This document shows, piece by piece, positions 2,788-63,645 of a stretch of 64,000 nucleotides of DNA. Every line of letters starts with the position of its first letter. Position 1 is the first letter of the stretch. Location of the stretch: positions 32,017,598 to 32,081,597 of the forward strand of contig NC_030385.2 in NCBI RefSeq assembly GCF_001625215.2. The letters are read 5' to 3'. Source of the stretch: Daucus carota subsp. sativus. Lineage: Eukaryota; Streptophyta; Magnoliopsida; Apiales; Apiaceae. A program made the position numbers and the translations under genes. The notes beneath the pieces are model-generated. The model searched no databases. It was given only the letters and a program-made list of their open reading frames with translations, and was not told where the DNA came from.

Positions 2788-4138
2788 CTAGCCAGAAGAG
2801 GATATGAATGGTCAGTTAGTATATTTTTGGGTCATGTTCTATTAATGTTTTTACATGATACCTGATTTTATAGCATGCAGCATACCTTGGCGCAGATTTG
2901 AACCTGCCACTTAGACTAAATGATATCGTTAACGTCCATTACAATATTTGCGTGAAGGAGGAGAAAAATTTAAGGACAGATGGACTTTTATAACCTAGCA
3001 CAACAGTACAAAACATTATAAATCATAACCAAATCAATCATCCAAACAACACGATTACGGATCAAGAATGTAAAACTCACCCGGTTTATTTGGATTTGAA
3101 TTTTCTGGATTATCCATCACATTAATACATATTGCAGATGCTCACAAATATACGATTCGATATTCAAATGTTAGACATGTCAAAAGCATTAGAGTTTGAA
3201 CTGGGGAGCAATGTAATCAAAATTAATGTTCGTTTTGGTAAGCAGCATTATATCAGTAGTAATTGTAGGACCTCTCGACGGGTTAAACGCCATACAACAC
3301 ATTATGCATACCGTTCAAGGATACAGCTAATGAAGAGGCCCGGGCAACATGAACATCATTGGCACTTTTCGAGAAACTATTAATTTCAGCAATATTAATT
3401 TCAGTGCTCAATTATCACACAATTATCTCCCGAAATTGCAGCACAATTCTACACACACTAAGCTATTCTATGTGAGTCATTATTTAGTACAAAATCAATA
3501 ATAAAACCATGTATGAAAATATGGCACACCTTTGCCCCAAACTAATTACAATTGCAATTAACAATCAACTAAAACTAAAACTAAAAGAGAAAAAAGTATA
3601 TACTAATAAAAATGATTTAAAAACTATTGAAAAATGGAATTATGTACACACCTGGTGGATGAAGTGCAGAAATAAGCCACAATTTTCACGATGATGCCGA
3701 CAGTTTTACTGTTCACGATCAATGTCACTGATTCACTGCGATTTGAAATTCAAGGAGGAATTCGTGCCTGAAATCATGGCTCGAAATAACTGTCTAATAT
3801 TTTCAAAAATTTCCCCGGATCATCCAGCAGTTTTCGGATCCTATCAGAAACTATTAAAAAATAGAACCACCAGTTACAACAGAGTCTAAAAAACTAAAAC
3901 AAAACGCACCACCACTATCACATAATGAAACATTATACAGAAGAACTGACCATTATCCATGGTTCCTGATATGTAAAAATTGATGCCAGCAATCGTTTTA
4001 TGGTAGAATTACGATCAGAATTCGGATGAAGGTCACCGGTTTCTGAAATTTGAAATCGAAGGAAGAAATGGTGGCTGAAATCATGGGTTCCGTAACTGAT
4101 AAAGGATATGCAAAATGACCAACCATGCCCTTTCCTAA
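2788..4138. other. No clear gene; degenerate minus-strand coding-like pieces
   Basis: Short open frames only. A motif near GAAATCATGG with similar flanks occurs at about 3770 and again at about 4077 and 4424, suggesting diverged copies of one sequence. Minus-strand translation around 3790-3850 gives coding-like but stop-interrupted peptides. Confidence 0.4.
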
Positions 4139-4309: not shown

Positions 4310-4753
4310 TATCCATGGTCAATAAGCTCGGAGTGGTCGGAATGAGGAGAAAGCGAGGTCGCGTTTGGAAGCGGGATCACAGTTGTGCACAATTTTGAAA
4401 TGAACGTGGTAACTGACCGCTGAAATCATGGATTGTCAAAACTGAAAAACGTACTGACCCGCCCAAGTTCGGATAATCCGGAAAATCATTCAGCAATACA
4501 CTGTTAAATGTTCCGGGTAAGGACCCGTTTTGGTTTGGATGGTCCAGTCTGCTTGTGCAATTACGCTGAAGTCCCCAGACGTGTATATTTTTTTTGTAGA
4601 GTAAGGGCAGAACCTGTAATTTGGCACATCCTTTGTATTCAGGAATTAGGATTATACATATATATATATATATCATGCTTGCCGATCTCGTTTGTCATCG
4701 TGTATGCCTTTTGTACAAATTCATTAGCTGGAAATCTATTCGTAACCTTGTTA
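4310..4753. other. No gene seen
   Basis: Minus-strand open frame to 4676 gives a peptide without recognisable features. A short (TA)n run lies near 4657-4671. Confidence 0.4.
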
Positions 4754-5570: not shown

Positions 5571-6405
5571 TTATTTGTTGTGAATTGGTGTTTTCCGCTG
5601 TGGTGGGCTATAATCCTTCTCCAGAACCACAAGCCTTTCCTCCACTCCCTCATTTAGAGCCTCCTCTTCCTCGTATGGTCTTCGCGATTTTGAGCCCTAC
5701 ATGATACTCATCGATTACATGTTAAGCTTCTTTCTTGAAACTTTACTGTTTACAAGACTATTTCAGCATATACATGTACTATAAGAACTGATAAACTAAA
5801 TGACAGTTTTGCTTTATGACCATTGAGTTCCTAATTACCAGTTGGAATATTTTCTTTAATTAGCAGGAATACTTATTATTTTTGAATATATATTCTTAGG
5901 GGAACTGACTCTCCACTCCACGGAGTAGAGGCAAGGTCTGTGTACGTCTTATTTTCCGCATACCCTGCTCTTCGAGCATCATACACTGCCTAACTAAGTT
6001 TCAGTTATAACATATTGCATGTTGCAAAAAGTGGAGACGACAACTTGATGGGAAGCGCTGTAGGAATCACTATATGAGTACTGTATATTTAGCTGCATAT
6101 ACATGGGACCAGAACTATTTAGTGCATAAACATGAGCATACACATATAATGCACACGGATCTTTTGGCCTTTTCATACTCTGTTTGGAGACACTGAAAGA
6201 GACATTTTACCAGTCACAATTCTCCCACTGCCCCCTGTTCAGAGTACTAACTTATAAGTACTCGGTGATTAGTTACTTAATGATCAACTAATTACCTCTG
6301 CCAGAAGTTGTTTTGCATTTTGAGAGGTTGGCTGATCAATCCTGTTGGGGGATGACATTGACTCATCAATCCTTTTTTCGGACAGTGACACATCAATCTC
6401 ACTCC
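5571..6405 (-). CDS. RGF/GOLVEN (CLEL) peptide precursor, 3' exons
   Basis: Two minus-strand exons end in a secreted-peptide motif. Exon 6405-6296 (acceptor ATGCAG, donor GAG|GTAATT) encodes SEIDVSLSEKRIDESM and a polar continuation. Exon 5696-5571 (acceptor ATGTAG) encodes an acidic segment and ends DYSPPQRKTPIHNK before TAA. The D-Y start, prolines, basic centre and P-x-HN end are the signature of root meristem growth factor peptides, which are tyrosine-sulfated at the DY, cut out of a precursor and sensed by RGI receptor kinases in roots. Phases agree between the two exons. The first exon requires one base from an upstream exon. No good signal-peptide exon with the right phase was found between 6406 and 6711, apart from a hydrophobic MIIVILFAII frame near 6493 that cannot be spliced in with a normal intron. 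It may be a tandem gene with an unresolved or lost first exon, or the alternative 3' end of the upstream RGF gene. Confidence 0.75.
5905..5990 (+). repeat. Possible TS-type SINE remnant
   Basis: The segment GGAGTAGAGGCAAGGTCTGT followed by GTACGTCTTATTTTCCGCATACCCTG resembles the conserved right part of plant TS SINEs, which in many dicots reads GGTAGAGGTAAGGTCTG-CGTACA. Only this part is seen, inside the last intron of the RGF 3' exon pair. Confidence 0.4.
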
Positions 6406-6710
6406 CTGCATGTTAATTACATCCCTATTAATGTTTCGTCATAGGATAACACAATAATACTCTTATGAATTATTGCAAATAATATCACAATAATCATGAA
6501 TTCTGGTCATAGTATAATTAGCAAGTTTCATGGCTCCCTTTGTTATGATAATGTATATTAATATTGATTGAACCTACAAAATACAAGTATTTTCGTGCTA
6601 AAAGCTAGAGTGCTGGATCTTTATATGAACCGGTGCTGGAGATCTAATCATCGGTGTGATTTTTTGAGTTGAGAGTCTAATAAAAGTTCTGAGAACTTTG
6701 AGTTGGCTGC

Positions 6711-7538
6711 TTAATTGTGAGATGGAGGACGTGTCATTGGTCTGGAATAGTCGGAGAAATAAACAGGATTTGTGTGCTGGTGCTTTGGTTGCAAGTGCCA
6801 TGACACTGAAACTAGAGTAGACTTGTTTGAAATAACACCTCTGTGATCTTCATGAGTTTTTTCCTGCTGAGAAGTATCAGTTTCCTTTGCTGCGTCTGGA
6901 ATGTCTGCACTGTCCTCGTCGGCATTATGAACACTTTTCTCAACCAGGCTCTTGTTTGCATTTGTATCTTCGTCTTGATTCATCTTAAAGTTGACAACCT
7001 TAGCCATCTGGGAAAAAAAATCCCAATAGAAACATAAATCACCAGATGTAAACATATTTGTCAATTGTCGTGGTAAGTATAAGTATTTGTGTACATAGCC
7101 ATCATTTTTTTGAGATCTATATATATTCTATATAATATAAACAAATTTTTATGATCTTCAAATATTAAAATACTGCTGGTTCTACCGGAGCTTTTCATGA
7201 AAATCAACTTTACTAATAAAATTCACAATTCTAAAACCTTGAAATTTGTACTCATTTTTAGCGTGAGACAGTGAGATTGACTCTTCTGCATTCTGAAAAA
7301 TTGCATATTCTCACATTTTCTTAAAAGTGCAGAACGATAATTCTCACGTTAAAATATCAACCCCGCCCTAACTAATTAACATTTAACATATAAGAATACC
7401 AGAGAAAAATATATAGAGACTTACCTTGGCTGGAAAAATTTGTTGGGGGAAATCCTTATCGAAAAGCGGAAGATGGCGAGCGATACAGGCATGCATGCAG
7501 AGGAAGATAAAGATGAGAAGAGATGCAACAGAGTACAT
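6711..7538 (-). CDS. RGF/GOLVEN (CLEL) peptide hormone precursor
   Basis: Two minus-strand exons, 7538-7425 and 7007-6711, make a 136-residue precursor with phase-0 splicing (donor AAG|GTAAGT, acceptor TTTTTTCCCAG). Residues 1-20 (MYSVASLLIFIFLCMHACIA) are a clear secretory signal peptide. The middle (about 45-105) is acidic and low in hydrophobics, as in other precursors of the family. The last 13 residues, 124-136, are DYSRPMTRPPSHN, the canonical RGF/GLV/CLEL domain: D-Y for tyrosylprotein sulfotransferase, S-x-P, then PP-x-HN at the very C terminus. The mature peptide would act in the apoplast on RGI/RGF-receptor kinases to maintain the root stem-cell niche or control gravitropism. The start is chosen because it opens the signal peptide. 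A second RGF domain lies downstream on the same strand, and exon 2 contains a usable internal donor (CAGAG|GTGTTA at 6839/6838) in phase with it. Confidence 0.88.
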
Positions 7539-8530: not shown

Positions 8531-8748
8531 CTTGTTCTGTTTTTTTATATGACGCTTTGACTTGTGACACTTTGACCGGGTAGTTAAAAATATTATTTTT
8601 TAAAATTTCCTTTTCTGAATAATAGTATATAATCAAAATTTTTATTTAGAAAAAAAAATTCAAAAAATAATATTTTTAACTACCCGGTTAAAGCACTTAA
8701 AAGTGTGTGCCAAAAGTCAAATCGTCATATAAAAAAAACAGAGGGAGT
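8531..8748. mobile_element. Palindromic MITE
   Basis: The whole segment is a long imperfect inverted repeat. The left arm holds TTTTTTTATATGACG and ACCGGGTAGTTAAAAATATT; the right arm carries their reverse complements and ends ACAGAGGGAGTA, similar to Stowaway ends (CTCCCTCTG). The arms are about 100 bp each with a short loop, so a transcript would fold into a long hairpin. Confidence 0.75.
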
Positions 8749-39651: not shown

Positions 39652-40337
39652 ACTGAAATAGAAAAATATGAATGCAGGCATAGACTCTGTTAGTTATTTC
39701 TTGCTCCGGCTAATATTATGATCTTGATTAAAATTTTCAAGAAGGGAAAATTAATTCTAAAGTCCCTGAACTATATGCAATTTTTTCTCTAGGTCCCTGA
39801 AGTATAAATGTCAATTCATATGTAATTCAACTCTTGATTTTTTCCTACCTGGGTCTTTCTGTTAGATCTGATTTGACGTCGTTAATTTTTCCGGCGAACT
39901 TGGTCGGAAAAGCTCAAATCCGGTGAGGGATAAATATCAAATAGGTGACTCGTTTCGTCCAAATATATCAATTGAGTTACTGCTTTCCAAATTGACTCAA
40001 ATTAGACACTCATTTGAAAAATTTGTATCAAAAATATCACTCTATCGTTAGTCAAAAATTTGAAAGTATTATATATTGAGTTTCGCACATTTTTTATGAA
40101 TGGTATTACATCCAAATGAAAGATTCCGAGTCCTACTATTTTCGCTAATATTTTTAGATTTTTAAAATTTTATCAACTATTTATTTTTAATTTTTTGATT
40201 GTTTTATTTGATTTAAATAAAAAAAAATAAATAGAAGATTAATTTTAAAAAATCTAAAAATATTATCTGTAATACTAGAACTCAGAATCTTTCATTTGGA
40301 TGTAATACCATTCATAAAAATTGTGCGAAACTCAATA

Positions 40338-43241
40338 TGTAACAACCGCGAAATTTCAAGTATGTAAATTTATTATTTAATTTTAAGCAGTTACAGTTAT
40401 TTATAATAATTGTGAAATTATTATTTAATAAAAATATTGGTACGTTAAATATTTAAGGCTAATACGAGTTTAGAATATGTTGGCTAGCAAATTAGATTTA
40501 GTTACCTACCAATAAAAATTAAATATTAGCTACGTAAATAAATTGGTAGACGTAATTTTTTATGACACGGAACATTTTTATATTACGGGTTAGCTAAAAT
40601 AAATATTATTAAAGTTTTGAAATATATAGAAAAATATTAGAGTAATTATTTAATTAATTATTCTAGTATTTTCGAGTAATATTGTATATATTTAAAAAGG
40701 AATTATTAAATGAGTCGGGACTGAAATATTTGTTAAATAAACGAAACAAAATCAAGCAGTGCGCGACGTTTAATTGCGGGCAAACAAATAAATAAAATAA
40801 TAAAATAATTAAAAATTACAAACCGACTAAATAAAACCAGGACATGGTTTTTGGTGGCACACAGGAGGTTGAATAAACCGTGTGCTATATGGAGTAGTGG
40901 CCAAGTAATTAAATCATTATAATTAATTAAGTATGTTTAATTTGCTAAGCATGATTAAAAATTTGCTATAAAAGCCAAGATACAGAGCAAGCTACCATTT
41001 TCACATAATTCGTCAAAAGAGAGGATAATCAGGAGAACTAGATTAAATTGCAGTACCATGCAGAAAGTTCAAGGCTCCTTTAAATACAGTAAGTATTATA
41101 TATGTCAGCATCAATTTCTTTCCTTTAATTGCTTGGTCCCATCATTAATAATGCTAATATACTCTTATAAGCTCTCTTGTGATATATAAAAGAGTATTGT
41201 GGATAGCTTCTAACGTTGTGAATGTAAAATTTAATAGGAGTTCATGTCTATGTTGGTTTATCACTTGAATCATCGGAAAAATTTGAATTGATTATGAATT
41301 AAGGTTTGTACTCTAAAAAGAAGGGTTTTGAATTATTGAGGTTGGAGAAATCAGAGGGAAAAAAAAAAGTGGTTGGACTGATGGGTTGTACGGCGGAATT
41401 CGCCGAGAGATGTGGAAGAAAAGGAACTGAGAGAGAGAGATATTACAGCGGGGAAAGGTGGCCGTCGGAGCCGAGCTCCGGCCGACGAGGATGATGGCAG
41501 TGTAGGTGGGAAGATGAGGGAGGTGGGTAGAGGGTGAAAAATAATTTCATGACCCGGGAATTAATTAAATTAATTAAAAAGGAGGTGAATTGGTTAATAA
41601 AACAGGGAATAAATAGAAATTAGTAAAATAATGAATTTGGTGGAGTACTTGTAAGTGGGATTTAAATAAAATAAAGAGGTTTTGGAAATTGCTTAATATA
41701 AGAGGAGTAATTAATTAGTTAAGAGAAGTGATTATTGATTTACGAATCATTTAGAAAGGTGGGATTTTGTAGAAATTTGAATGAGGTGAGTTAAAAAATA
41801 TTCATTCATTCATAATTTAATACATTATGGAGTAAGAAAGCTTATAATATTTTATTTAATGCAGAGCGGGTAACAAAAGAAAAGAATAGTTTGATTAAAG
41901 CTTATAATATTATAAAAAGGAACTATTCATCATAAAGTAGATCATTTAAGATCATTCTTTTATAAGGATATTGATTACAATGTTGTGTGATATAGAGTAT
42001 TTATTATCTGGAAAGGACGAAGTTTCACTGTGCGAGCTAAGCTAAGAAATATTTTATAGCAAAGGAGACCAGGCAAGTTCACTATCCCTGTCTTGATGTA
42101 AAGTTTTTCGTGCCTATTTGATAATTTTGTGAAAAGTATTAATTGTGAAGATATTATATTTTGTACCATTGTGAATCGAGAAAATATCTTTGTTTCATTT
42201 TGAAGGCTTTCAAAATATTGTTCACATACTACTTTCTATAATTCGAGCCCTCCCATTATTCGGGAATGAGCTGATCCTATAACGATAATATTTTGAATTT
42301 TCGAAACTTGATGTGAATACATTGCAGTGATGGTCTCAATTTACTTCTTTTGGAGATCATCTTATCCTTTGGAATCTAATTCTTCTAAATTATTTTTAAC
42401 TTCTACCTTCGGGTAATCTTTGTTATGATGAAAGGGTGCATTGTTCGCACTTCTTTGATAGAGTTGAGGGTGATAATTGAGAAGTGTTTGTTTGAGAAAA
42501 TTTCCTTGTATTCGGAGGAATCTGTTCAAGCTGGTCAACACGAATTTATTAAATTGGTGGGAGAGTTGAAATGTACTATCTGGTAAGGCAGATAGTAGGG
42601 TTCCAGTGTTAAACCCTGATGCTAGCAAAGAGAGTGTTGGTGTGTCTTCAGTGGTTACGATCAGACCACTAGGACTACACAGGAGAACGGTATTCACGAA
42701 ATGGTGCTGATCGAGCCATGTAGTGTTACCGAAAGGTGGAAGACCAGCATTTTCAGTACTTGAAATTGTGTTGTCATTTGATGGTAACTGTTTTGTTACT
42801 TTGACTTGAATTGTCTTCTATGCTTTATTCGCATATCCTGTTAATGATTGTTTTGTGCTATGTGGACTTGCTGAGCAATTAGTTGCTCATTTTTTGCATC
42901 TACTTTATTTCTTTTGAGCAGTAAAGAGTTAGTATGGCACAAATCAAGAGAATCGCCCGTAAACGGATTTTGGCAAAGTAAAGGAGAAGGCACATCACAT
43001 GAGCTGAAGCTGCTAGGCAACGTCGTTTGGTTATACCATCTACAGTTATTATAATAGTCTGTAATCAGATTTGTTATTATGTAATAAAGTTAGACCTGGT
43101 AGAAATGTTGTAAGACGATCGACCCTGGACTTGTGGGGCAATAATTGTGCTTGTATAATATTAATATAATGCAAGTGTTGTTTTGAGCCAGATGTTTAGT
43201 GACGGACCAGATCTGCGAGATGCGGATCTGGGGGCGTCACA
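40338..43241 (+). repeat. 5' LTR of the gypsy element
   Basis: 2904 bp. It begins TGTAACAACCGCGAAATTTC and ends in CTGGGGGCGTCACA, and is nearly identical to the 3' LTR apart from the MITE in the latter. Short frames inside it are not genes. Confidence 0.95.
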
Positions 43242-51308: not shown

Positions 51309-51342
51309 TTCCGAGGTCGGAATCCTTTAAAGGAGGGAAGAA

Positions 51343-54300
51343 TGTAACAACCGCGAAATTTCAAGTATGTAAGTTTATTATTTAATTTTAAGCGGTTACA
51401 GTTATTTATAATAATTGTGAAATTATTATTTAATAAAAATACTGGTACGTTAAATATTTAAGGCTAATACGAGTTTAGAATATGTTGGCTAGCAAATTGG
51501 ATTTAGTTACCTACCAATAAAAATTAAATATTAGCTACGTAAATAAATTGGTAGACGTAATTTTTTATGACACGGAACATTTTTATATTACGGGTTAGCT
51601 AAAATAAATATTATTAAAATTTCGAAATATATAGAAAAATATTAGAGTAATTATTTAATTAATTATTCTAGTATTTTCGAGTAATATTGTATATATTTAA
51701 AAAGGAATTATTAAATGAGTCGGGACTGAAATATTTGTTAAATAAACGAAACAAAATCAAGCAGTGCGCGACGTTTAATTGCGGGCAAACAAATAAATAA
51801 AATAATAAAATAATTAAAAATTACAAACCGACTAAATAAAACCAGGACATGATTTTTGGTGGCACACAGGAGGTTGAATAAACCGTGTGCTATATGGAGT
51901 AGTGGCCAAGTAATTAAATCATTATAATTAATAGTATGTTTAATTTGCTAAGCATGATTAAAAATTTGCTATAAAAGCCAAGATACAGAGCAAGCTACCA
52001 TTTTCACATAATTCGTGAAAAGAGAGGATAATCAGGAGAACTAGATTAAATTGCAGTACCATGCAGAAAGTTCAAGGCTCCTTTAAATACAGTAAGTATT
52101 ATATATGTCAGCATCAATTTCTTTCCTTTAATTGCTTGGTCCCATCATTAATAATGCTAATATACTCTAATAAGCTCTCTTGTGATATATAAAAGAGTAT
52201 TGTGGATAGCTTCTAACGTTGTGAATGTAAAATTTAATAGGAGTTCATGTCTATGTTGGTTTATCACTTGAATCATCGGAAAAATTTGAATTGATTATGA
52301 ATTAAGGTTTGTACTCTAAAAGGAAGGGTTTTGAATTGTTGAGGTTGGAGAAATCAGAGGGAAAAAAAAAAGTGGTTGGACTGATGGGTTGTACGGCGGA
52401 ATTCGCCGAGAGATGTGGAAGAAAAGGAACTGAGAGAGAGAGATATTACAGCGGGGAAAGGTGGCCGTCGGAGCCGAGCTCCGGCCGACGAGGATGATGG
52501 CAGTGTAGGTGGGAAGATGAGGGAGGTGGGTAGAGGGTGAAAAATAATTTCATGACCCGGGAATTAATTAAATTAATTAAAAAGGAGGTGAATTGGTTAA
52601 TAAAACAGGGAATAAATAGAAATTAGTAAAATAATGAATTTGGTGGAGTACTTGTAAGTGGGATTTAAATAAAATAAAGAGGTTTTGGAAATTGCTTAAT
52701 ATAAGAGGAGTAATTAATTAGTTAAGAGAAGTGATTATTGATTTACGAATCATTTAGAAAGGTGGGATTTTGTAGAAATTTGAATGAGGTGAGTTAAAAA
52801 ATATTCATTCATTCATAATTTAATACATTATGGAGTAAGAAAGCTTATAATATTTTATTTAATGCAGAGCGGGTAACAAAAGAAAAGAATAGTTTGATTA
52901 AAGCTTATAATATTATAAAAAGGAACTATTCATCATAAAGTAGATCATTTAAGATCATTCTTTTATAAGAGCATCTCCAACCATCTAAAACACTTGGCTA
53001 AAAGATGAGTTGACATACTTAAAATAAAAAGATTTAACCAACAGCTTCAAAAACTCAACTCCAACCATGATCAGCTGTTGTCTATAAATTTAGCCAACCT
53101 CCTATGGATGGCTAAATTTGTCGAACCTCTACAGGTTTGTAAGAAAATCTGTAGGAAGATTGTACATCATTTATTACTATATTGAACTGATATATTCTAT
53201 TTTAACAATTTAAAATATTAATAACATACTATTTTTAAATTATAGTCAACCAATATAGCCAGTACCATTGAAGCAAAATGTCTTACAGGTTCAGCAAATT
53301 TTACATAATGTCTTACAGGTTCAATTTAGCCAACAATTATAGCCAATGCCGTTGGAGATGCTCTAAGGATATTGATTACAATGTTGTGTGATATAGAGTA
53401 TTTATTATCTGGAAAGGACGAAGTTTCACTGTGCGAGCTAAGCTAAGAAATATTTTATAGCAAAGGAGACCAGGCAAGTTCACTATCCCTGTCTTGATGT
53501 AAAGTTTTTCGTGCCTATTTGATAATTTTGTGAAAAGTATTAATTGTGAAGATATTATATTTTGTACCATTGTGAATCGAGAAAATATCTTTGTTTCATT
53601 TTGAAGGCTTTCAAAATATTGTTCACATACTACTTTCTATAATTCGAGCCCTCCCATTATTCGGGAATGAGCTGATCCTATAACGATAATATTTTGAATT
53701 TTCGAAACTTGATGTGAATACATTGCAGCGATGGTCTCAATTTACTTCTTTTGGAGATCATCTTATCCTTTGGAATCTAATTCTTCTAAATTATTTTTAA
53801 CTTCTACCTTCGGGTAATCTTTGTTATGATGAAAGGGTGCATTGTTCGCACTTCTTTGATAGAGTTGAGGGTGATAATTGAGAAGTGTTTGTTTGAGAAA
53901 ATTTCCTTGTATTCGGAGGAATCTGTTCAAGCTGGTCAACACGAATTTATTAAATTGGTGGGAGAGTTGAAATGTACTATCTGGTAAGGCAGATAGTAGG
54001 GTTCCAGTGTTAAACCCTGATGCTAGCAAAGAGAGTGTTGGTGTGTCTTCAGTGGTTACGATCAGACCACTAGGACTACACAGGAGAACAGTATTCACGA
54101 AATGATGCTGATCGAGCCATGTAGTGTTACCGAAAGGTGGAAGACCAGCATTTTCAGTACTTGAAATTGTGTTGTCATTTGATGGTAACTGTTTTGTTAC
54201 TTTGACTTGAATTGTCTTCTATGCTTTATTCGCATATCCTGTTAATGATTGTTTTGTGCTATGTGGACTTGCTGAGCAATTAGTTGCTCATTTTTGCATC

Positions 54301-54641
54301 TACTTTATTTCTTTTGAGCAGTAAAGAGTTAGTATGGCACAAATCAAGAGAATCGCCCGTAAACGGATTTTGGCAAAGTAAAGGAGAAGGCACATCACAT
54401 GAGCTGAAGCTGCTAGGCAACGTCGTTTGGTTATACCATCTACAGTTATTATAATAGTCTGTAATCAGATTTGTTATTATGTAATAAAGTTAGACCTGGT
54501 AGAAATGTTGTAAGACGATCGACCCTGGACTTGTGGGGCAATAATTGTGCTTGTATAATATTAATATAATGCAAGTGTTGTTTTGAGCCAGATGTTTAGT
54601 GACGGACCAGATCTGCGAGATGCGGATCTGGGGGCGTCACA
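51343..54641 (+). repeat. 3' LTR of the gypsy element
   Basis: 3299 bp including a 395-bp Tourist MITE and its 3-bp duplication; without them it matches the 2904-bp 5' LTR in length to within 3 bp. Only scattered substitutions and small indels distinguish the two by eye. Confidence 0.95.
52969..53363. mobile_element. Tourist-like MITE in the 3' LTR
   Basis: GAGCATCTCCAACC at the left and GTTGGAGATGCTC at the right are flanked by TAA on both sides (52966-52968 and 53364-53366). The 5' LTR has the empty site TTATAAGGAT at the equivalent position, proving both the insertion and the TAA duplication. It is 395 bp and non-coding. Confidence 0.96.

Positions 54642-57984: not shown

Positions 57985-63645
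<5,661 letters not shown>

Follow-up and report, generated by a model that had tools for sequence, protein, structure and literature searches.

A carrot RGF/GOLVEN gene that appears able to make two different peptide hormones through the choice of its 3' end

Analysis of a 64-kb carrot window (the whole stretch of DNA analysed, 64,000 nucleotides, to which all positions refer unless another locus is named) identified two intact RGF domains, DYSRPMTRPPSHN and DYSPPQRKTPIHNK, on the minus strand, together with a single signal-peptide exon. The probable explanation of this arrangement is a single RGF/GLV/CLEL gene with two alternative 3' ends, which would give either a 136-aa H-like precursor or a 172-aa R precursor. 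That is, the gene appears able to make two different RGF/GOLVEN hormones via the choice of its 3' end. The features of the locus are as follows.

7425..7538, minus strand: coding part of exon 1, common to both forms, 114 nt, with the predicted signal peptide MYSVASLLIFIFLCMHACIARHLPLFDKDFPQQIFPAK, donor AAG^GTAAGT, phase 0
6839..7007, minus strand: exon 2 core, common to both forms, acidic propeptide, 169 nt, ending in phase 1
6838..6839, minus strand: phase-1 donor CAGAG^GTGTTA within exon 2, where the switch is proposed to occur
6711..6838, minus strand: H-like extension of exon 2, translated if the donor is unused, terminating in DYSRPMTRPPSHN and a stop
6714..6752, minus strand: RGF domain 1, H-like, DYSRPMTRPPSHN, from the motif scan and the gene model
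6554..6586, minus strand: candidate poly(A) elements of the H-like form, TTGTAT (6586), AATATT (6565) and AATATA (6559), weak motif matches
6296..6405, minus strand: exon 3 of the R form, 110 nt, phase 1 to 0, GSEIDVSLSEKRIDE...LLAE, donor GAG^GTAATT
5571..5696, minus strand: exon 4 of the R form, terminating in DYSPPQRKTPIHNK and a stop
5574..5615, minus strand: RGF domain 2, group R, DYSPPQRKTPIHN plus K, from the motif scan and the gene model

A first-pass annotation had described two RGF domains on one strand and one signal-peptide exon (7538-7425), and this description was confirmed, with all minus-strand coordinates holding; the motifs start at 6752 and 5615 and are thus 1137 bp (1.1 kb) apart. 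A six-frame scan with three RGF-like patterns found only two RGF-like places in the 64 kb, both at this locus, and a chance origin of the motif pair was ruled out, since both motifs are intact and are the sole ones in the window. The hydropathy maximum of exon 1 is 2.97, compared with 2.68-3.38 in four paralogues, the signal peptide being predicted from this hydrophobic stretch. Exon 2 starts at 7007 and is preceded by TTTTTTTTCCCAG. Its internal donor at 6839/6838 ranks top among the four phase-1 GT dinucleotides of the exon, yet is weak, agreeing with the consensus at 4/8 positions.

Exon 1 and exon 2 read to the stop at 6711 encode 136 amino acids ending in DYSRPMTRPPSHN, and exons 1-4 (114, 169, 110 and 126 nt), with exon 2 cut at 6839/6838, encode 172 amino acids in a stop-free frame ending in DYSPPQRKTPIHNK; the H and R forms share all of exon 1 and the 169-nt core of exon 2. 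The earlier claims that the exon at 6405-6296 needs a phase-1 donor, that such a donor lies within exon 2 before the H-like domain, and that splicing there would yield a 172-residue precursor with the same signal peptide were all borne out, exon 3 running from phase 1 to 0 and the four-exon product being free of stops. As to the 136-residue form, which had been attributed to intron retention, the length proved correct; the form is probably a composite terminal exon, with a putative poly(A) site in intron 2, rather than plain retention, and the candidate poly(A) elements, which are motif matches only, lie approximately 125 to 152 bases past the H-like stop. The H-like extension has 42 open codons after the donor, followed by a complete motif and then the stop, and its GC content (0.41) is exon-like, the values being 0.45 in exon 1, 0.42 in the exon 2 core, 0.45 in exon 3 and 0.48 in exon 4, compared with 0.29 in intron 1, 0.32 in the remainder of intron 2 and 0.36 in intron 3.

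The window also contains several repeats. A MITE-like inverted repeat at 8540-8737, with arms of 44 and 31 nt that are 89-90% complementary, is located about 1 kb upstream of the start codon. Direct repeats at 40337-43241 and 51342-54641, which are 99.2-99.7% identical and about 11 kb apart, the second copy having an insert of about 400 bp, are probably the LTRs of a recently inserted retrotransposon, and a 242-bp direct repeat (62416-62656 and 63022-63263, 99.2% identical) has a start-to-start distance of 606 bp.

Both domains carry the residues D1, Y2, P10 and N13 that mark RGF/GLV/CLEL peptides in a C-terminal 13-residue motif (positions as given in the available text of Furumizu and Sawa, PMC8329595), and both also retain H12, with the stop following immediately in the H-like domain and one residue later in the R domain. 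Domain 2, DYSPPQ-RK-TPIHN with one further K, has R/K at positions 7 and 8 and the seed-plant HN end, as group R does, and lacks the C-terminal extension of 9-18 residues that lycophyte group R carries according to the same text. Domain 1, DYSRPMT-R-PPSHN, has R8 and falls outside strict group H, which is defined by histidine at position 8 (Furumizu and Sawa, PMC8329595); it is therefore termed 'H-like', because it has PPxHN, stops directly behind N13 and resembles H genes on C9. An approximate H-type consensus query retrieved two C9 genes (E 7.7e-9 and 6.5e-6) and then domain 1 of the window as the third match (E 0.93, 50% identity), and outside the motif the H-like region of the window matched the two C9 and the C3 H regions no better than shuffles (113, 334 and 783 of 1000, respectively). 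The profile PF21529 (GLV1-2) scored 22.4 bits on the last exon (E 2.3e-4), 19.9 bits on the 172-aa protein and 20.7 bits in the genome search, all under the curated cut-off of 28.1, and the gene is therefore assigned to RGF on account of its motifs and exon organisation rather than of a Pfam match.

In the carrot genome (441,086,747 bases in 11 contigs), the PF21529 search identified 12 places, six of them over the cut-off, with the window outside those six. After an H gene (C9:15935138) and two repeat-borne gene fragments (C9:41849972 and C7:28000179) were removed, nine R-type loci were left, the window included, of which one (L024 on C1) may be decayed. Exon models were made from the DNA, by eye and by script, for five single-R loci (L006, L007, L020, L021 and L022) and for the C3 locus L025; L023 and L024 were read as sequence. 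The widest motif patterns were applied to L024 and L032-L035 only, and narrower ones to the window with L001-L007 and to L006, L007 and L020-L029. In the genome, the queries made from exon 1 and from the C3 H exon matched only their own loci, a 20-residue H-type query matched only the C3 locus, and a 15-residue AtRGF1-like query, which had no control and so says little, gave no match; the genome counts given here accordingly cover R-type loci.

Two R-type paralogues, L006 (C2) and L020 (C8), were modelled with four exons, of 120, 166, 47 and 153 nt and of 120, 163, 47 and 156 nt, respectively, and with phases 0, 1 and 0, while the models of R-type L022 (C2) and of L007 and L021 have three exons each, with phases 0 and 0 in the former and 1 and 0 in the latter two. 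L006, L020 and L022 resemble the window gene in having a signal-peptide exon, a phase-0 first intron and the R motif in the terminal exon, and L006 and L020 also match its phases 1 and 0 and nearly equal its exon 2 length (166 and 163 vs 169 nt). Alignments of the R form with L020 (E 9e-10) and L006 (E 2e-9) cover almost the full length at 23-24% identity, the E values referring to a database of only 10 proteins. No H domain was found by the motif patterns within the stretches fetched for L006, L020 and L022, and reading past the exon-2 donor in L006 and L020 (GTATGT and GTATTT) leads to an immediate stop, after KKGM and KKGI, respectively. The H-type gene L033 (C9), read by eye, has a signal-peptide exon ending in ...SSRACNARPLGAPLSCK in phase 0 and then a single terminal exon with DYDPPRTHPPIHN; its TxPPxHN-type motif ends its second exon, and the H form of the window gene has the same plan. 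These structures indicate that the 136-aa form is organised like an H-type gene, that the 172-aa form is organised like an R-type gene and, given the four-exon R plan of L006 and L020, that the H-like domain sits in intron 2 of an R-type gene. The gene anatomy, the phases, the intact frames and the presence of the same plan in modelled paralogues are established. The suggestion of alternative 3' ends sharing one signal peptide is supported by the two paralogues, whose models have a splice site at the equivalent position, identical phases and an exon 2 of similar length, and by the resemblance of exon 3 to that of the C8 paralogue.

Other motif-like sequences were noted among the paralogues. 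L032 and L033 have a second, degenerate motif-like stretch (ECDPPKTHPPS and ECDPPKAHPPA, respectively) upstream of the true RGF domain. At L024 (C1:18543500-18550500, position 2330, minus strand), an RGF-like end with an odd C-terminus, DYTPARRKTPVYT followed by a stop, has PVYT, comparable to PIYN at the C3 locus, and a variant class or decay is possible. The RGF fragments DYSLARRRSPIHN and DYSLERRRSPIHN, at L026 (C9:41845500-41852500, near 4500) and L028 (C7:27998000-28005000, near 2218), respectively, are L021-like by eye and have no evident signal peptide nearby; the compared stretches of the two loci are 97.7% identical over 745 bp, and the fragment is apparently carried by a mobile-element-like repeat.

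The region from the internal donor to exon 4 contains 34 candidate AG...GT exons of 20-300 nt with compatible phases, and exon 3 stands first among them by its donor (7/8 consensus positions; next best 5). Its opening, GSEIDVS, scored 28 against GGEIDIS of exon 3 of L020 on C8, a score equalled by 27 of 5000 shuffles, and the best other candidate scored 15. The comparison with exon 3 of L006 gave a score of 16, which falls short of significance (equalled by 1332 of 5000 shuffles) and is exceeded by that of a candidate exon at 6234 (21 vs 16). The exon 2 core has no significant protein similarity to that of L006 (equalled by 1652 of 2000 shuffles) or of L020 (by 305 of 2000), and exon 2 of L006 and of L020 resemble each other (0 of 2000); to judge from these scores, the exon 2 cores are diverged beyond alignment. 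The splice sites of intron 1 are strong. The internal donor GTGTTA (4/8) is, jointly with one C3 site, the weakest among 19 donors compared, and the acceptor pyrimidine fractions are 0.35 for exon 3, the lowest of 18, and 0.45 for exon 4, the second lowest, tied with the C3 R exon. Decay of the R route could also account for its poor donor and acceptors.

A second locus with two domains was found on C3 (L025, C3:2127000-2134000), where, on the minus strand (2938-3479 and 2358-2459), an H-like DYYGPKNHSPRHH and an R-like DYSPATRKLPIYN, each followed by a stop, are 580 bp apart and downstream of a common signal-peptide exon, MKISVVFISLLVLSSFLHEVQG. The C3 domain DYYGPKN-H-SPRHH has H8. Both terminal exons fit the phase-0 end of exon 2 of this locus, and none of 11 candidates for a phase-1-to-0 exon was convincing, which suggests that the terminal exons would be mutually exclusive last exons rather than products of an internal-donor route. 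The H-like exon does contain CAGAG^GTGTT (CAGAGGTGTT) in phase 1, ten bases identical to the window donor, a likeness that was noticed post hoc. Since both motifs are off consensus (S9 and H13 in one, Y12 in the other), L025 may be decaying. Counting the window and L025, an H-like domain lies inside the gene at two of the nine R loci.

In the proposed mechanism, exon 1, which encodes the signal peptide, would be spliced to exon 2. If the weak donor at 6839/6838 is skipped, translation would continue into the H-like RGF domain and terminate at 6711, with the transcript ending at a poly(A) site in intron 2, which would give the 136-aa precursor; if the donor is used, exons 3 and 4 would be joined on, giving the 172-aa precursor that ends in the group-R RGF domain. 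Which end is chosen is probably decided as slow splicing, with its weak donor and weak acceptors (6405 and 5696), competes with early polyadenylation, and this race in intron 2 would set the ratio of the two hormones, which splicing or cleavage factors could shift. Candidate S1P-type sites were identified by pattern in exon 1 (RHLP), in the H-like tail (RGVI) and in the R tail (RLVV), and both forms could use one processing route, since the common exon 1 has RHLP, a possible site for SBT6.1; the CLEL6 sites known for this S1P-like subtilase are RRLR and RRAL (available text of PMC7162652). The production of both transcripts, the poly(A) site, the regulation, and the secretion and activity of both peptides are inferred.

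The one-gene model is supported by the GSEIDVS match of exon 3, the exon-like GC content of the H-like extension and the dual locus L025, and what counts against it are the weak sites of the R route, the lack of significant similarity of the exon 2 core to L006 and L020, the lack of a significant match to exon 3 of L006, the want of a good phase-1-to-0 exon at L025 and the other exon plans modelled for L022, L007 and L021. Two tandem genes, an upstream H-like gene made of exons 1 and 2 and a downstream R gene with an unrecognised first exon and promoter of its own, were the alternative put forward in the first-pass annotation, and it has been weakened to the point of appearing quite improbable. 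It would agree with the two H-type genes on C9 (L032 and L033), where no R motif was found in the 19.5 kb fetched around and downstream of each (9.9 + 9.6 kb), and with the reading of L033 as a two-exon gene. The R plan, however, depends on exon 1 together with the 5' portion of exon 2: in L006 and L020 a signal-peptide exon and a phase-0-to-1 exon precede exon 3, and both are present here upstream of the H-like domain. A start for a separate R gene could be sought at ATG 6497 (MIIVILFAIIHK), which has a phase-1 donor before exon 3 and, with a hydropathy of 2.49, is the sole strongly hydrophobic one of the five ATG frames of at least 15 aa from the donor to exon 3 (next 0.61), but it would require a 55-nt intron and has no basic n-region. 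Introns of 55 nt are shorter than usual plant introns. All other ATG frames of at least 15 aa from the donor to exon 4 (four before exon 3 and six after) have hydropathies of 1.4 or less, compared with 2.97 for exon 1. A hidden signal-peptide exon for the R part was rejected as unlikely because its best candidate, ATG 6497, implies that 55-nt intron.

It is also unlikely that the gene makes a single peptide and carries a relic, either with the R end decaying and H made, or with R made and the H-like domain left over in intron 2. The weak donor and acceptors of the R route would fit the former, and the nine introns of the five single-R paralogues yielded no H remnant (27 tests in all, with three H queries; the top result, from the C3 query in intron 2 of L020, was equalled by 14 of 200 shuffles), which indicates that the H domain is not generally kept; against a relic of either kind stand the intact frames, the conserved motif residues, the prompt stops and the exon-like GC content of both ends. 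Direct joining of exon 1 to exon 4, with exon 2 of the H form and exon 4 of the R form as mutually exclusive last exons, is highly improbable: the phases fit (0 to 0), the product would be a 79-aa R precursor, and the terminal exons of L025, both phase 0, could likewise be joined directly to its exon 2, but exon 3 would be left unexplained despite its 7/8 donor and its match to exon 3 of L020.

A wider proposal may be considered, namely that an H/R dual gene was ancestral in seed plants and that the two-exon H and the four-exon R genes each lost one 3' end, with the window locus, perhaps together with that on C3, retaining an old form still displayed by conifers. This proposal is tentative and rather doubtful. 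The phase-0 first intron after the signal peptide in L033, L006, L020 and L022 counts for it, as do the presence of both the H and the R plan within the window gene, the H-like domain that separates the signal peptide from the R exon at two of nine R loci, and the CAGAGGTGTT donor sequence that the C3 locus carries in the same phase, although this was noticed after the fact. It is countered by the H regions of the window and C3, which outside the motif were matched as well by 783 of 1000 shuffles, by the nine introns in which no H remnants were found, and by the splice route at C3, which is probably different; in addition, Furumizu and Sawa (available text of PMC8329595) suspected independent origins of the gymnosperm pairs.

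A peptide switch by splicing had been thought unusual for this family, which is contradicted by conifer CLEL genes with an alternative donor: the same kind of switch was predicted in spruce for CLEL14/22, CLEL18/23/24, CLEL15/25 and CLEL20/26 (Strabala et al. 2014, available text of PMC4016512). The window gene has the anatomy by which these dual genes were defined there, a common N-terminal part, an alternative donor in the terminal coding exon and a second CLEL peptide downstream. It differs in that its donor is AG^GTG rather than AG^GTA, and in that the conifer models have some EST support (PMC4016512). Fang et al. 2021 (PMC8708909) reported one RGF domain per protein in 203 genes from 24 species, and Arabidopsis CLEL6/GLV1, which has a group-R end and whose eCLEL6 peptide, GEEVVVMDYPQPHRKPPIHNE, resembles DVVAMDYAQPHRKPPIHN of L020, encodes one peptide per gene (PMC7162652), unlike the two-peptide model of the window gene.

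Among the matches listed from the open-licence PMC literature, a set without subscription papers, none described a dual RGF gene for any angiosperm, and the window gene is therefore, as far as seen, a fresh case of a known but poorly documented kind of gene in a new branch of plants. It would surprise specialists because earlier description was limited to gymnosperms. If both forms are made, one promoter governs two hormones that belong to one family and differ in their active ends, the choice being made by splicing or polyadenylation, and a mechanism predicted in conifers would extend to a eudicot root crop that is transformable and in which it is directly testable. In the available text of Furumizu and Sawa 2021 (PMC8329595), H/R pairs with a shared N-terminal part were recognized in gymnosperms only, independent origins were suspected, and the prevalence of such pairs within and outside gymnosperms was posed as a question, on which the window gene, if the one-gene model is true, would bear, while offering a concrete hypothesis for the split of the H and R peptide classes. 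Like the gymnosperm pairs, which comprise two precursors of one species that have their N-terminal part in common and carry either an H or an R peptide, the window gene would join an H-like and an R end to one N-terminal part; it differs from them in belonging to a eudicot genome and in that its domain 1 is without the strict group-H residue (PMC8329595).
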